NCBI GenBank assembly: GCA_024641705.1
Contig: JAHECO010000040.1
Span: 1-33,119 of the forward strand
Length of the DNA stretch: 33,119 nucleotides
Direction of reading: 5' to 3'
From: Candidatus Kryptoniota bacterium
Lineage (GTDB): Bacteria > Bacteroidota > Ignavibacteria > Kryptoniales > JAKASW01
Under the pieces are notes generated by a model. It was not told the origin of the DNA. It saw only the letters and a list, made by a program, of their open reading frames with translations, and did no database searches. Positions 264-31,080 of the stretch are shown piece by piece. Both the position numbers and the translations under genes were made by a program. How positions within the stretch are numbered: position 1 is the stretch's first letter; each line of letters starts with the position of its first letter.

Positions 264-306
264 AGGATGAGGTAATTAGTTGGACCTCCAAGAATTCAAA
301 ATTCAA

Positions 307-407
307 AAGTCAAAGGTCAAAACTACATGTCAAAACTCAAAACGCACACTAGAGCATCTTTGACTTTTTAGTTGTACTTTTGCCCTTTGAGATTTGACCT
401 TTGACTT
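307..407. repeat. Large inverted repeat between hypD and hypE
   Basis: A perfect 15-bp inverted repeat has arms at 307-321 (AAGTCAAAGGTCAAA) and 393-407 (TTTGACCTTTGACTT), separated by 71 nt. Inside it lie nested shorter copies of TCAAA and its complement, for example CTCAAA against TTTGAG. The whole gap is built from TCAAA-type units. The right arm ends 16 nt before the hypE ATG, so a hairpin in the mRNA could affect hypE translation or the hypD-hypE balance. It may instead be a copy of a dispersed intergenic repeat. Function is inferred; the repeat itself is directly visible. Confidence 0.85.
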
Positions 408-423
408 ATGCAACGGTGACAAC

Positions 424-1488: not shown

Positions 1489-1754
1489 TGGGGCGGGGAC
1501 TTCAGCCCGCATTCAGCAATATTTTGAGAGAGCAGCCAATCTAACCACGGAGGCACACGCCTGTGCGTCGGAACGACGCTTCGGTCGTCGACGTGACAAA
1601 GCCACTTTGGCGACGGCACGCGTGCAGGCGCGAGACACAGAGAGTCGGAAGCTGTCTTTCCGCTCTGTCTGTCTATTGGTTGGTCGTTTCTGCCTCTCGG
1701 GGTGAAGCTTGACTATCGTCCCACCGTGTGCTACAATTAGGAAAAAGGTGGCAC
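1489..1754. other. Structured hypE-nikR intergenic region
   Basis: This 266-bp gap has several dyads. Just after the hypE stop, GCGGG and CCCGC flank a 7-nt loop (about 1493-1511), possibly a weak hairpin without a T-run. Further on are ACGAC/GTCGT around GCTTCG, CAAAG/CTTTG around a 3-nt loop, and a perfect 10-bp palindrome GCACGCGTGC at 1616-1625. An imperfect stem pairs GAGAGTCGGAAG with CTTTCCGCTCTGTC at about 1640-1672. No open frame here looks like a gene. The last part holds the nikR promoter. The dense structure resembles a dispersed intergenic element, but copies elsewhere cannot be checked from this window. Confidence 0.5.
1709..1737 (+). promoter_or_regulatory. Sigma70-like promoter of nikR
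   Basis: TTGACT at 1709-1714, a 17-nt spacer and TACAAT at 1732-1737 give a near-consensus promoter (5/6 matches in each box). The expected transcription start near 1744 leaves only about 10 nt before the GTG at 1755, just enough for the AGG of the ribosome-binding site. This excludes the longer frame beginning at 1728, which would lie inside the promoter. Confidence 0.75.
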
Positions 1755-2196: not shown

Positions 2197-3900
2197 GTGC
2201 AATTCAGATGTTTATTACTCGCCTTTGGCTTATTCTGGTCATCGGCTTTGGCCGGGAATCCTGAGGGCGATTCCACCAGAACATACGCCGTGGATCCTGT
2301 CGTAATTACAGGTACGCAAACGGAGACGGCACTCAGATTCGTGCCGGCCAGTATATCCACAATTACGTCGCGGGAACTCGAGGAAAGCAGCAGGGTGTCG
2401 CTCCTGGACGCAGTCAGCGAGAAGGTGACGGGAGTCTTCGTTACTCAGAGGGGGGTGATAGGATTCGGCATCAACAATCCGGCAGGCGCGATCACCATAC
2501 GCGGCGTCGGCGGAAGCCCGAACACACAGGTACTCGTCATGATCGACGGCGTCCCGCAGTTCATGGGGATCTTCGGGCACCCTTTCCCCGACACGTATCT
2601 CACAGAGAACGCACGGCGGGTCGAAGTGATTCGCGGACCGGCATCCGTACTCTATGGTACTAATGCCATGGGCGGGGTCATTAACATCATCACGAAGAAG
2701 GAAGATGCGGAAGGGTTCCGGTTCAACGGCGGATCCTCCTACGGCACGTTCAATACGCAGGAATACAACGTAGCGGTAGGCTACGGCACGAGAAGATTCG
2801 ATATCCTCTTCTCCGGCGGCCACGACGAGACCTCCGGACACAGGGCCTACTCCGATTATAATGTCAACAACGGCTACATTAACGGAGGTTATGAGCTCAG
2901 CGATAATCTCATTCTCAGGATGAGCGGCAATATCAACAAATTCAGGACGTTCGATTCGGGTCCGGCATCTTCGCCGAAAATAGATAACTGGGTGGACGTG
3001 ATGCGCGGCACAGGCAGCCTATCGCTCGTAAATAAATTTGGGAATTTGGACGGCTCGGTCAGAACGTTTTACAACTACGGCGACCACGACATCTTCGATG
3101 GCTTCCACTCCATCGACAGGAATCTCGGCATAGTGGCTTTCGAGAACTTGCGGCCGTTCCGCGGCAATGTCTCGACGATCGGCGTAGACTTCCAGCATTA
3201 CGGCGGCTTCGCAGTGAACAACATCTCGCATGCGGATTTCGGCAGTCATTACATTGATGAGGTCGGCATTTACAATTTGGTCCAGCAGATGCTTCTGGAC
3301 CGTGTTATGGTCAATGCCGGTATGCGATTTCAACACAGCAGCGTGTACGGGGACGAGTTCGTTCCGCAGTTGGGAGTTGCCTGGGGCCTGAGCGGTTCAT
3401 CGACGGTCAGGGCATCCGTTTCAAAAGGTTTTCGAAGCCCCACGATACGCGAGCTTTACCTCTTTCCGGCTCCCAACGCGGGCTTGCGGCCGGAGCGCCT
3501 GTGGAATTATGAGGTAGGGTTGCTGCAGAGCGTATCTGACCTTGCCGGCTTTGAGATTACCGGTTTCGTTGCGGAGGGGAGCGACCTGATACTGACGGAG
3601 GGGGTGTATCCGAACCTGCGGCTCACAAATTCAGGGAGCTTCACGCACAGAGGCGTAGAACTGTCGGGACATGTCTTCGCACTGGAGGGATTGAGACTGG
3701 ACGTGAGCTACGGTTACGTCGACCCGCGCGATCAGACTTACGCAACACCCATGCATAAGCTCTTCGTCGGTTGCAGCTATAGCCGTCACAGACTGAACGT
3801 GAATCTCTCGCTCCAGTCGATTGCCGGACTCTACGGCGCTGACTATCACAGGAACCGGCTGCCCGATTATGCTCTGGCAGGAGCGCGGGCTTCGTACTAG
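2197..3900 (+). CDS. TonB-dependent outer-membrane receptor, cut by an in-frame stop
   Basis: The GTG start at 2197 follows GGGAAAGGG and gives a signal peptide ending near ALAG. The TonB box/plug region follows (about residues 30-160: VVITGTQTE, then DAVSEKVTGV, ITIRGVGG, VLVMIDGVP, EVIRGPASVLYGTNAMGGVINIITKK), then a barrel with SKGFRSPTIRELYLFPAPN and LRPERLWNYEVG. The type resembles BtuB and other metal-complex or vitamin receptors. Next to nikR the likely cargo is a nickel or cobalt chelate; this is inferred from context. The frame ends at TAG 3898-3900 after 567 residues, but the same frame continues 43 codons with a normal receptor C-terminus. The product as written lacks the last barrel strands and the terminal outer-membrane sorting signal. 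Confidence 0.9.
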   Translation: MQFRCLLLAFGLFWSSALAGNPEGDSTRTYAVDPVVITGTQTETALRFVPASISTITSRELEESSRVSLLDAVSEKVTGVFVTQRGVIGFGINNPAGAITIRGVGGSPNTQVLVMIDGVPQFMGIFGHPFPDTYLTENARRVEVIRGPASVLYGTNAMGGVINIITKKEDAEGFRFNGGSSYGTFNTQEYNVAVGYGTRRFDILFSGGHDETSGHRAYSDYNVNNGYINGGYELSDNLILRMSGNINKFRTFDSGPASSPKIDNWVDVMRGTGSLSLVNKFGNLDGSVRTFYNYGDHDIFDGFHSIDRNLGIVAFENLRPFRGNVSTIGVDFQHYGGFAVNNISHADFGSHYIDEVGIYNLVQQMLLDRVMVNAGMRFQHSSVYGDEFVPQLGVAWGLSGSSTVRASVSKGFRSPTIRELYLFPAPNAGLRPERLWNYEVGLLQSVSDLAGFEITGFVAEGSDLILTEGVYPNLRLTNSGSFTHRGVELSGHVFALEGLRLDVSYGYVDPRDQTYATPMHKLFVGCSYSRHRLNVNLSLQSIAGLYGADYHRNRLPDYALAGARASY

Positions 3901-4032
3901 GTTACTGAATATGCCGGCGTGTTCGTATCGGGTCAGAATCTCTTCAACGTCAGCTATCAGACGATTTATGATTATCCGATGCCGGGGAGGGTGCTGAAAG
4001 CGGGACTCAGTTTTGATATCGATGTAAAATAG
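3901..4032 (+). pseudogene. Detached C-terminus of the TonB-dependent receptor
   Basis: Directly after the TAG, the receptor frame stays open to a TAG at 4030-4032. It encodes typical C-terminal receptor sequence: VFVSGQNLFNVSYQTIYDYPMPGR and a final strand KAGLSFDIDVK. No start codon or ribosome-binding site precedes it. It is either separated by a nonsense mutation, reached by readthrough, or split by a single-base sequencing or assembly error. Full length would be 611 residues counting the stop position. Confidence 0.88.
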
Positions 4033-27289: not shown

Positions 27290-30200
27290 ATGCGTCGAAC
27301 GTCTTTGAAGGGAATGGCCCGACCGGAAGGCGGAAACCGTCTGCTGCTTGCGGCGTTTCCCATCCTCCTCATTCTCTTCTGCGGTGTCGCCGGGGCGCAA
27401 ATCTATGACTTCAAGACTTACTCCGTACGAGAAGGGCTCCTCTCGAACGCAGTCACCTCCCTTTGCCAGGATTCATACGGCTATCTGTGGGTCGGGACCG
27501 GCGACGGGGTAAGCTTATACGACGGCGAGGTCTTCAGAAACTACACCGTGGCAGACGGGCTTGCTTCCAGCCTGGTGAATTGCATCATCGAGGACCTGGA
27601 CAACAAGGGCGTCATCTGGATGGGAACGAACGGCGGAGGTGTGAGCCGGTTCAAGGCCGGGAAGTTCCGGACTTTCAAGATCGGCAACTCCGACTGGTCC
27701 GAAAGGGTGAATTCGCTGGCCGAAGACAGCTCCGGCACTTTGTACTGCGCCACCGACGACGGCGTCTACCGACTAAAGGATGGAATCTGCAAACCGCTTT
27801 CGAGCGAGGTCATGCACGGCACGTTCAATCAGGTCGTGCGGAGCGGCGATAGTTTGTTCATCGTGGATGGCAAGGGGGCTCTTCTTCAAGTTAATCTCGT
27901 CAACGGGCGCACTCGATCACTTGTGAAGGATCTGCCGGCGTCGCTCAGGGTGAGTAGAATATCGGTCGACTCAAAGAAGGAACTATGGCTCGTGTCAGAC
28001 GATGGAACAATGATGAACCTGACCGGGAGAGTATTGGCCCGCCGTGCAATTGGATCCGTCCCGAAATTCATTACGGACGACGGGGCCGGCGATATCTGGA
28101 TCGGCACCTCGATCGGGCTCTACAAGCTGGACATGAATTCATTTCCCTCGTCTCCGCTTGCGCTTCTGACTACGGCAAACGGACTGGAGCAGGACGACAT
28201 CACAGCCGGGCTTGTCGACAGGGAAGGAGATCTCTGGATCGGTACGGCGGGCAAGGGATTGGCGAAACTCGCAGACAAGAATTCGTTCGCGTTTCCGGTT
28301 GAGTACGGCCGTATAAGTGAGAACAATTCCCAGGCATCTTCGGACAAGTATGGACACATTTGGGTAGCCGGAAAAGCCGGCCTGACGGAAATCTGGAACG
28401 TGGGCGTGGGCGTACTTAGAAGGCATTTTCATCTGTACAGGGAAATGAACGTTGCGGCATCGTGCTTTTCCGCACAGGTATCGTCGGGGAACCGGTTATG
28501 GCTTGCGTCGGAAGATGGAGTGATACACTGCTTTTCTATACATAGTGAAGGAAACGAGGCTGAGAGACTGCGGGATGTGAGTTCATTTTCGGTGAACAGA
28601 ATGCTGCCCGGTAAGAACTTGCTTTGCCTGTATGTGGACGGCGAAGGGCGGGGATGGTGCAGCGTCGATCTCTCCGGCGTCCTCGAGTTCAACACCTCGA
28701 AAGGGTTGGAAGGTGCGAGGGTCTACACCACGAACGACGGTCTGCCGGACAACTCCGTTCGGGCGATATACAGCGACAGGGAGGGAAACGTCTGGTTCGG
28801 CGGATACATCGGTGGGCTGTCTGAACTCAGGGATGGCAAGATGACCCGGTTCACGCGCAGGGACGGCCTGCCCGACAACTCGATCCGCGCGATAGTGCAG
28901 GATGATTCGGGCAACATGTGGATAGGCACGAGGTATGGAGGCATCGCAATAATGGCGGGAAATCGATTCACCACGCTCTCCGTCAATGAAGGCCTGGTCA
29001 GTAACGGCATTTGGGCGATGTGCTTCAGCAGGGAACACGGGATCTTCTTCGGTACGCAGCGGGGGTTGCAGGAACTGCAGCGCAGCGACTGGCACTCTCT
29101 TGGCTGGCGCGCGTTCGGCGATGCCAACCCGTCTTACGCCTGCGGTACAGCCGTTTCATCAAGCGGCGGTCGGGGAACCGAACTCCTCTGGGCGAGCAAT
29201 GCCACGGGGATATTCCTCAGCAACTTATCCCGGGCGCCTCGTTCACGAGTGGCCCCCCTCGTATACATTACCGGACTTTTTGTCAACGGCAAGAAACTTG
29301 ACCTTGATTCCGCTGTCGCGAGAGCCGGACCGGAACTTCAGTCTTCGGAAAACACTCTGACGTTTGAATTCGCGGGAGTCAGTATGAGGGACGAAGGGAG
29401 TTTAAGGTACCACTATATCCTTCACGGTGCCGATGCCGACTGGCACCTCCTGCGGCGACGCCTGCCTATTACCTATGCCACGCTTCACCCGGGCAAATAT
29501 GTCTTCGAAGTGAGAGCCGTGAACTCCGCGGGGCTCGAGAGCAAGGATGTGGCGACGCTGCCGGTTGTCATCGTCTCGCCCTATTGGCGACGATGGTGGT
29601 TCGTGACTTCTGCGGCGATAATCATCCTTTCCGTCATTTATTTCTTGATCAGAGTGAAAGTCAGAAGGCTCCTCGAAATTGAGAGGGTGCGGGCGAGGAT
29701 TGCCACCGACCTCCACGACGATATAGGATCCGGGCTTACGAGGATCGCTATCCTGGCCGATGTCGCACTTCGCCAGACCGAGGCCAATGATGTCGCCGCC
29801 CGGACGGGGTCCCTCCATCGTGCGCAGGGAAGCGGGGAGAGCTTCTCCGCGCACAGCCTTGTGCAGAAAATAGGAACGAACGCGAGAGAGCTTGTCGATT
29901 CAATGAGCGATGTCGTCTGGTCCATCGATCCGAAGAATGTGACAGTTGGTGACCTCGTAACGCGTTTCCGTTCGTTTGCCTACGAGATGTGCGAAGCGAA
30001 GGGAGTCAATCTGCAATTTGAAACCGATCCTGAACTGGAGACTTTGCGCCTCGACCCCGGAATCATGAGAGCACTTCTGATCATCACGAAAGAGGCGTTG
30101 AATAATTCGGTCAAGCATTCGGATTGCGGGAACGTGAGGATCGGTATAAAGTCGAAGGCAAAGGAGATTCACCTCCTGGTGTCCGACGACGGCCGCGGTT

Positions 30201-30340
30201 TCCAGGCAGGGGGACATCCGACGGGCCACGGGCTCGAAAACATGCGAAAACGTGCCGAGAAACTCGGAGGAGAGTTCAGACTTAGGACCTCCCCGGGTGC
30301 CGGTACCATCATTGAGATAACGGTGCCTTTTTCCACGTAA
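27290..30340 (+). CDS. Double beta-propeller / Y_Y_Y sensor histidine kinase
   Basis: This 1016-residue kinase has a signal peptide or first membrane anchor (LLLAAFPILLILFCGVAGAQ). Then come about a dozen Reg_prop propeller blades (YGYLWVGTGDGVSLYDG, VIWMGTNGGGVSRF, GDLWIGTAGKGLAKL, GNVWFGGYIGGLSEL, GNMWIGTRYGGIAI), a Y_Y_Y domain (about 689-757) and a transmembrane helix (about 770-790). The HisKA_3 domain has the phospho-acceptor H809 in ATDLHDDIGSGLTRI; the HATPase domain shows EALNNSVKHS, SDDGRGF and GHGLENMRKRAEKLGG. It is built like the sensor half of Bacteroidota hybrid two-component systems but has no receiver or AraC part. Its ligand, perhaps a glycan fragment, is unknown. The start is uncertain: GAGGAG lies 19 nt upstream. 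Confidence 0.93.
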   Translation: MRRTSLKGMARPEGGNRLLLAAFPILLILFCGVAGAQIYDFKTYSVREGLLSNAVTSLCQDSYGYLWVGTGDGVSLYDGEVFRNYTVADGLASSLVNCIIEDLDNKGVIWMGTNGGGVSRFKAGKFRTFKIGNSDWSERVNSLAEDSSGTLYCATDDGVYRLKDGICKPLSSEVMHGTFNQVVRSGDSLFIVDGKGALLQVNLVNGRTRSLVKDLPASLRVSRISVDSKKELWLVSDDGTMMNLTGRVLARRAIGSVPKFITDDGAGDIWIGTSIGLYKLDMNSFPSSPLALLTTANGLEQDDITAGLVDREGDLWIGTAGKGLAKLADKNSFAFPVEYGRISENNSQASSDKYGHIWVAGKAGLTEIWNVGVGVLRRHFHLYREMNVAASCFSAQVSSGNRLWLASEDGVIHCFSIHSEGNEAERLRDVSSFSVNRMLPGKNLLCLYVDGEGRGWCSVDLSGVLEFNTSKGLEGARVYTTNDGLPDNSVRAIYSDREGNVWFGGYIGGLSELRDGKMTRFTRRDGLPDNSIRAIVQDDSGNMWIGTRYGGIAIMAGNRFTTLSVNEGLVSNGIWAMCFSREHGIFFGTQRGLQELQRSDWHSLGWRAFGDANPSYACGTAVSSSGGRGTELLWASNATGIFLSNLSRAPRSRVAPLVYITGLFVNGKKLDLDSAVARAGPELQSSENTLTFEFAGVSMRDEGSLRYHYILHGADADWHLLRRRLPITYATLHPGKYVFEVRAVNSAGLESKDVATLPVVIVSPYWRRWWFVTSAAIIILSVIYFLIRVKVRRLLEIERVRARIATDLHDDIGSGLTRIAILADVALRQTEANDVAARTGSLHRAQGSGESFSAHSLVQKIGTNARELVDSMSDVVWSIDPKNVTVGDLVTRFRSFAYEMCEAKGVNLQFETDPELETLRLDPGIMRALLIITKEALNNSVKHSDCGNVRIGIKSKAKEIHLLVSDDGRGFQAGGHPTGHGLENMRKRAEKLGGEFRLRTSPGAGTIIEITVPFST

Positions 30341-30358
30341 CTGTACATTTGTTCAGTT
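30339..30358. promoter_or_regulatory. 20-bp dyad, copy 1, upstream of the response regulator gene
   Basis: AACTGTACATTTGTTCAGTT is a dyad of AACTGnAC and GTnCAGTT half-sites around 4 nt. It overlaps the kinase stop codon and lies 11 nt before the response regulator gene. The same sequence with one change recurs at 31114. A regulator-binding site is the likely meaning; which protein binds is inferred. Confidence 0.65.
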
Positions 30359-30369
30359 GCTCTTTTTGA

Positions 30370-31080
30370 ATGGGACATTTAGGATTGAGATTGGACGACA
30401 AGAAAGACAAGAAGATATCTGAAATGACCTCTTTGCCTTCGGACGAAAACATCATCCGGGTAACCATAGTCGAGGATGACGACGAGATTAGAAACGGGCT
30501 GTGCTGGCTGCTGAACCATTCGGACGGCTTTGCCTGCATGGGTACGTGCAGGAATTGTGCGGAGATCATGAAGGGCATCGAAGAAAACACACCGGACGTG
30601 ATTTTGATGGACATAGGTCTCCCGGGCAAATCCGGCATCGAGTGTGTCCAGACAATCAAGGAGCACTACCCGAGAGTGGAAATCCTCATGGTGACGGTGT
30701 ACAGCGATGAGGAGAAAGTCTTCCAGTCTATCAGAAACGGCGCGGTTGGCTATATTCTAAAGAATACATCCTCGGAGAAACTCCTCGATGCCATCAGAGA
30801 GGCTTACAGAGGCGGAGCGCCCATGTCTCCGGAAATCGCAAGGAAGGTCATCAGGTACTTTCACGGGAGTGACGGAGGCGAGTTGACTGCACCCCTGTCT
30901 GAAAGGGAAGTTGAAGTACTCCAATGTCTCGTCGACGGCCACTCCTACAAGTCGATCGCGGACAAACTCTATATCAGCGTCCACACCGTCAGGTTTCACC
31001 TTCACAACATCTATGAGAAACTCCACGTCAGGTCACGGGCCGAGCTCGTGGCAAAGACCGTGAAGAACAAGCTCGTCTAG
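30370..31080 (+). CDS. NarL/FixJ-type response regulator
   Basis: The 236-residue protein (or 218 from an alternative ATG at 30424, neither with a strong ribosome-binding site) has a receiver domain and a LuxR-type helix-turn-helix. The receiver shows VTIVEDDDEIRNGL (acidic pocket), the phosphorylated Asp in VILMDIGLPGKSG (D81 by the longer numbering), the VTVYSDEEKV switch region and YILKNTS with the conserved lysine. The output domain has LSEREVEVLQCLVDGHSYKSIADKLYISVHTVRFHLHNIYEKL. It starts 30 bp after the kinase gene, so the two form a two-component pair with the HisKA_3 kinase. It probably controls transcription at the two flanking dyads. Confidence 0.94.
   Translation: MGHLGLRLDDKKDKKISEMTSLPSDENIIRVTIVEDDDEIRNGLCWLLNHSDGFACMGTCRNCAEIMKGIEENTPDVILMDIGLPGKSGIECVQTIKEHYPRVEILMVTVYSDEEKVFQSIRNGAVGYILKNTSSEKLLDAIREAYRGGAPMSPEIARKVIRYFHGSDGGELTAPLSEREVEVLQCLVDGHSYKSIADKLYISVHTVRFHLHNIYEKLHVRSRAELVAKTVKNKLV

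Follow-up and report, generated by a model that had tools for sequence, protein, structure and literature searches.

If an outer membrane receptor gene is interrupted by a single in-frame stop codon, and the codons behind the stop still resemble the end of the protein, has the gene been broken, is the stop read through, does the shortened protein suffice, or is the sequence in error? This question arises in a stretch of DNA of 33,119 nucleotides from a Candidatus Kryptoniota bacterium (the window), the whole of which is contig C24 of a 4.62 Mb draft genome with 95 contigs. From the contig start, the genes follow in the order hypD end, hypE, nikR and receptor frame, with these features:

15 to 263, + strand: hypD 3' end, the contig starting within the gene (Pfam HypD profile positions 279-351 of 351; TIGR00075)
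424 to 1488, + strand: hypE, intact (TIGR02124 hypE, 478 bits, cut-off 251.6)
1709 to 1737, + strand: sigma-70-type promoter-like site TTGACT-17-TACAAT, 10/12 matches
1728 to 1754, + strand: NikR operator-like inverted repeat GTGCTAC-N13-GTGGCAC, which overlaps the -10 element of the promoter and extends up to the nikR start
1755 to 2168, + strand: nikR, intact nickel-responsive regulator (Pfam NikR_C and RHH_1; NF003381, 182.9 bits, cut-off 105)
2197 to 3900, + strand: TonB-dependent receptor frame, ending at the amber stop, with a signal peptide-like start, plug and predicted barrel strands 1-20
3898 to 3900, + strand: in-frame TAG, which coincides with the final residue of predicted barrel strand 20
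3901 to 4032, + strand: untranslated remainder of the receptor frame, predicted barrel strands 21 and 22, natural TAA

An in-frame stop in a NikR-linked receptor gene

The receptor frame starts with GTG 31 bases downstream of nikR and is open for 567 codons (2197-3897). This part matches the Pfam families Plug and TonB_dep_Rec_b-barrel, the latter match being cut short at residue 567, which corresponds to profile position 421 of 436. Beyond the TAG, the same frame continues for 43 sense codons to a TAA at 4030-4032. An end-to-end alignment with five relatives contained small gaps only, and no further frame break was seen in it. By its Pfam matches and the read-through model, the frame has the plug and the 22-strand barrel of TonB-dependent receptors; the complete C-terminal strand is absent from the translated product and present in the read-through frame only. 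The first-pass annotation, which had described a TAG splitting an otherwise intact TonB-dependent receptor frame beside nikR, was thus correct in this respect.

FrpB4 of H. pylori is a NikR-linked TonB-dependent receptor; there, as in Caldithrix abyssi and in the window, the receptor lies behind nikR or a NikR site. The window copy differs from these receptors in being broken by an amber codon, and nickel is its putative substrate. Among 40 receptor loci, 21 have a same-strand nikR at most 800 bp upstream; contig ends truncate several of the remaining 19. Both the upstream nikR and the operator motif at 1728-1754 place the window receptor in this NikR-linked group. The promoter-like site is weak on its own, since four such sites were found versus 1.9 expected in shuffles. 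The inverted repeat stands at an equal distance from nikR in near relatives and agrees in form with the delta-proteobacterial NikR site, which PMC545781 gives as GTGTTAC-[N13/14]-GTAACAC. We searched the genome with the pattern GTGYTAC-N13-GTRGCAC, a consensus picked with the delta-proteobacterial site in mind. Without mismatch it occurs genome-wide only at two nikR genes, and with one mismatch at two more places (C28 and C75). Because a backward control pattern gave 13 matches at up to one mismatch, only the exact matches are informative.

The hypD fragment scores under the whole-protein cut-off of TIGR00075, as only the gene end is present. We do not favour a contaminant origin of the contig: hypE is 76-82% identical to its congeners (those with a near-full-length match), these being its nearest matches, and this identity assigns the contig to the same genus. 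In nine congener loci examined around hypE, no nikR was found within up to 1.5 kb behind this gene, so the place of the nikR-receptor pair behind hypE may be special to this species.

Further observations concern the surroundings of these genes. The hypD-hypE intergenic stretch (window 300-410) contains inverted repeats of the type CAAAAGTCAAAGGTCAAAACT / AGATTTGACCTTTGACTTATG (21 nt, 90%), the exact core of which occurs only in loci occupying the same place. A palindrome-rich stretch, GCGACGGCACGCGTG, lies in the gap between hypE and nikR (window 1547-1680). Farther along, window 27290-31080 encodes a large sensor kinase of 1016 aa and, behind it, a response regulator of the NarL type.

The codons behind the stop encode the receptor end

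When the stop was replaced by X, the read-through frame aligned to relatives across the stop. The tail keeps 17 of the 19 columns that are invariant in the five nearest relatives, compared to 208 of 258 in the part before the stop. In a leave-one-out count, intact relatives kept 19 of 19-22 invariant tail positions, the same range as in the window. Three tail columns, N581, Y587 and G603, are invariant across a 49-row alignment and all are kept. While 43 open codons alone would mean little, their homology identifies the 43-residue tail as the true C-terminal end of the barrel, and the view of the first-pass annotation that these codons encode typical final barrel strands and end normally holds. 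The only oddity of the tail is a K at one position where the five relatives have F. This change slightly exceeds one-step drift and could mean either that constraint had already relaxed before the stop or that the strand has genuinely changed.

Comparison of the codon with relatives, as the first-pass annotation had proposed, marks the stop as special to the window copy. A tblastn search gave 79 rows, of which 13 end short of the TAG column, one represents L001, the copy in the window, and 65 are other loci; these include distant receptors, several per genome in places, and hence count as loci, not independent species. None of the 65 has a stop at this column, nor does any of the 46 loci with at least 340 bits. 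Polar residues dominate there (Q 14, R 11, K 9, H 5, E 4, S 4, D 3, A 3, L 3, G 3, N 2, T 1, Y 1, I 1 and one gap).

Two other measures were discarded. Pairwise dN/dS was unusable for estimating constraint, with synonymous changes saturated in 8 of 10 comparisons, and the third-position G+C of 0.68 before versus 0.54 after the stop is not evidence, given that relatives vary both ways.

A second, intact nikR-receptor operon

NikR_C has two matches in the genome, namely the nikR genes of C24 and C61. The second nikR is located at C61:15148-15549 and is followed by a second receptor, which starts at C61:15655 and has a complete tail. This operon is intact and carries the same operator motif as the window operon. 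Window and C61 copies are 60.0% identical in their receptors and 65.7% in their regulators. The C61 pair is nearer to the pairs of congeners (receptor identity 64-77%), and the window pair branches outside them; a close copy occurs in only four of 12 congeners (G002, G006, G010 and G012). Among the relatives of this receptor group, one genome (G075) belongs to a different family, which makes transfer between lineages likely.

At least two full-length matches to the [NiFe]-hydrogenase large subunit in the genome indicate that the organism needs nickel. According to the first-pass annotation, the strain may have lost the uptake of nickel complexes. Such a loss does not follow, because the same genome holds the intact C61 operon, which can presumably still serve nickel uptake across the outer membrane. 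At only 60% identity, however, the C61 paralogue may transport a different complex, of nickel or of another metal.

Two nikR genes in one genome, each with its own operator and receptor (G000 C24:1728-2168 and C61:15116-15549), are an observation in their own right. In the class search, only one other genome (G066) had a second full nikR match among 50 genomes with a match. For Caldithrix abyssi, too, PMC5317091 describes a genome with two receptor loci that have NikR sites (Cabys_1319/Cabys_2622).

On the 3' side of the C61 receptor (L086:15589-17677) lie a 149 aa ORF that matches no Pfam family as well as an ABC ATPase and a permease of the ABC-3 (zinc/manganese) type, and the same ATPase-permease pair stands behind the receptor in G002. 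ATPase and permease are a possible inner-membrane partner for nickel.

Predicted structure of the receptor

An AlphaFold2 model of the read-through frame, built with 48 relatives, reached a mean pLDDT of 86.2 and comprised 22 barrel strands. In this model, strand 20 spans residues 558-568, and the TAG codon is residue 568, its last. Exactly the last hairpin, that is strands 21 (573-583) and 22 (598-610), is predicted to be lost at the TAG. According to the current view (PMC10945584), the beta-signal for BAM resides in the last strand, although equivalent signals recur in internal strands. From such established knowledge, the truncated receptor would likely fail to assemble in the outer membrane.

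The nearest solved structure is BtuB, the vitamin B12 receptor of E. coli, which has the 22-strand barrel and the plug in common with the window receptor and was the best match both by profile (5.7e-46) and by fold (TM 0.82/0.87, 21% identity). Identity as a BtuB is not supported: TIGR01779 (TonB-B12) gave 120 bits versus a cut-off of 599.7, scored on the truncated frame, and the neighbouring gene is nikR.

Origin of the stop

In the receptor tree, the window branch measures 0.41 from the shared node, versus 0.37-0.62 for intact relatives (summed branches). With a tail that has not decayed and a branch no longer than theirs, constraint must have persisted until recently, and the lesion is either recent or an error. 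As judged from the letters, the consensus fits a fixed mutation, a variant within the population or a consensus error alike.

A one-base mistake of consensus or assembly, leaving the gene intact in the organism, would account for the single lesion, the fully conserved tail and the lack of any rate increase in the tree; the absence of a second lesion is likewise expected from a sequence error, and the genome is a draft of 95 contigs. Short-read consensus errors of the one-base nonsense kind are rare, however, the adjoining hypE and nikR are open at full length, and an intact paralogue makes real loss tolerable, so we regard an error as unlikely. Read-through of a suppressed or programmed amber, yielding the full-length receptor, would also predict the conserved tail, and near-cognate tRNAs could conceivably misread UAG naturally at a low level. 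Yet TAG is an ordinary stop in this genome. Of 40 long ORFs picked mechanically from the window and L086, some of which may not be genes, 11 end in TAG, and the TAG-ended ABC-3 permease of C61 equals a TAA-ended relative in G002 in length. A suppressor tRNA, for which the first-pass annotation had advised a search, did not turn up: none of the 47 tRNA genes has a CTA anticodon (48 tRNA-model hits, 47 above the cut-off and confirmed by ARAGORN, covering all 20 amino acids; the 48th is weak, below the cut-off and unconfirmed by ARAGORN). C93 carries an intact RF1 (527 bits, cut-off 423), and PylS has no match above the cut-off in the genome (two weak matches of 24 and 22 bits versus 178). RNA after the stop is no more stable in structure than shuffles (z -0.23). 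Together with the lack of this stop in the 65 other loci, these results led us to reject amber recoding, and we give read-through hardly any credence. From the origins listed by the first-pass annotation, a recent pseudogene and a one-base error thus stand, while the programmed or suppressed amber falls.

A functional role of the shortened receptor with its 20 strands is also very improbable. The break does lie at the periplasmic end of an even strand, exactly where strand 20 ends, the product terminates in an aromatic residue (...ARASY), as outer membrane proteins often do, and the truncated protein was modelled with the same 20 strands. However, of the 137 one-step changes that could create a nonsense codon in the barrel, 24 (17.5%) hit such a turn, so we rejected the position of the stop as a signal. 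Loss of the neighbouring strands lowers the model confidence of the last strand from about 94 to 84, no protein among the 48 relatives behind the fold stops at this point, and an old short form would leave the conservation of the downstream codons unexplained. That the truncated receptor inserts and works, or acts as a gated leak, after shedding its last hairpin in one step and closing via strand 20, has in our estimate an even slighter chance.

We therefore favour a recent nonsense mutation that broke a NikR-linked TonB-dependent receptor gene present as a redundant second copy, with a probability of about 0.78. By this account, one mutation would have struck a redundant copy not long ago, in an operon that appears from its sequence to keep promoter, operator and intact nikR. 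Translation would end at strand 20 of the model, so that the truncated receptor would lack both the last hairpin and the C-terminal beta-signal strand, and periplasmic degradation would be its most likely fate. The intact C61 operon would then cover nickel uptake across the outer membrane, given its presumed function. An ordinary nonsense pseudogene of a redundant copy likewise has a single in-frame stop, a conserved frame and an intact paralogue, and we found no difference between such a pseudogene and the window receptor. Our literature search retrieved no paper on premature stops, readthrough or pseudogenization in TonB-dependent receptors. The finding looks like an ordinary gene break of the nonsense type, not a new genetic mechanism.

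For the organism, the presence of an intact copy with the same operator corrects the inference of lost nickel uptake. The genome documents two nikR-receptor operons, one of which is apparently on its way out, and the two-operon arrangement behind hypE offers a modest lead on nickel supply in the genus.
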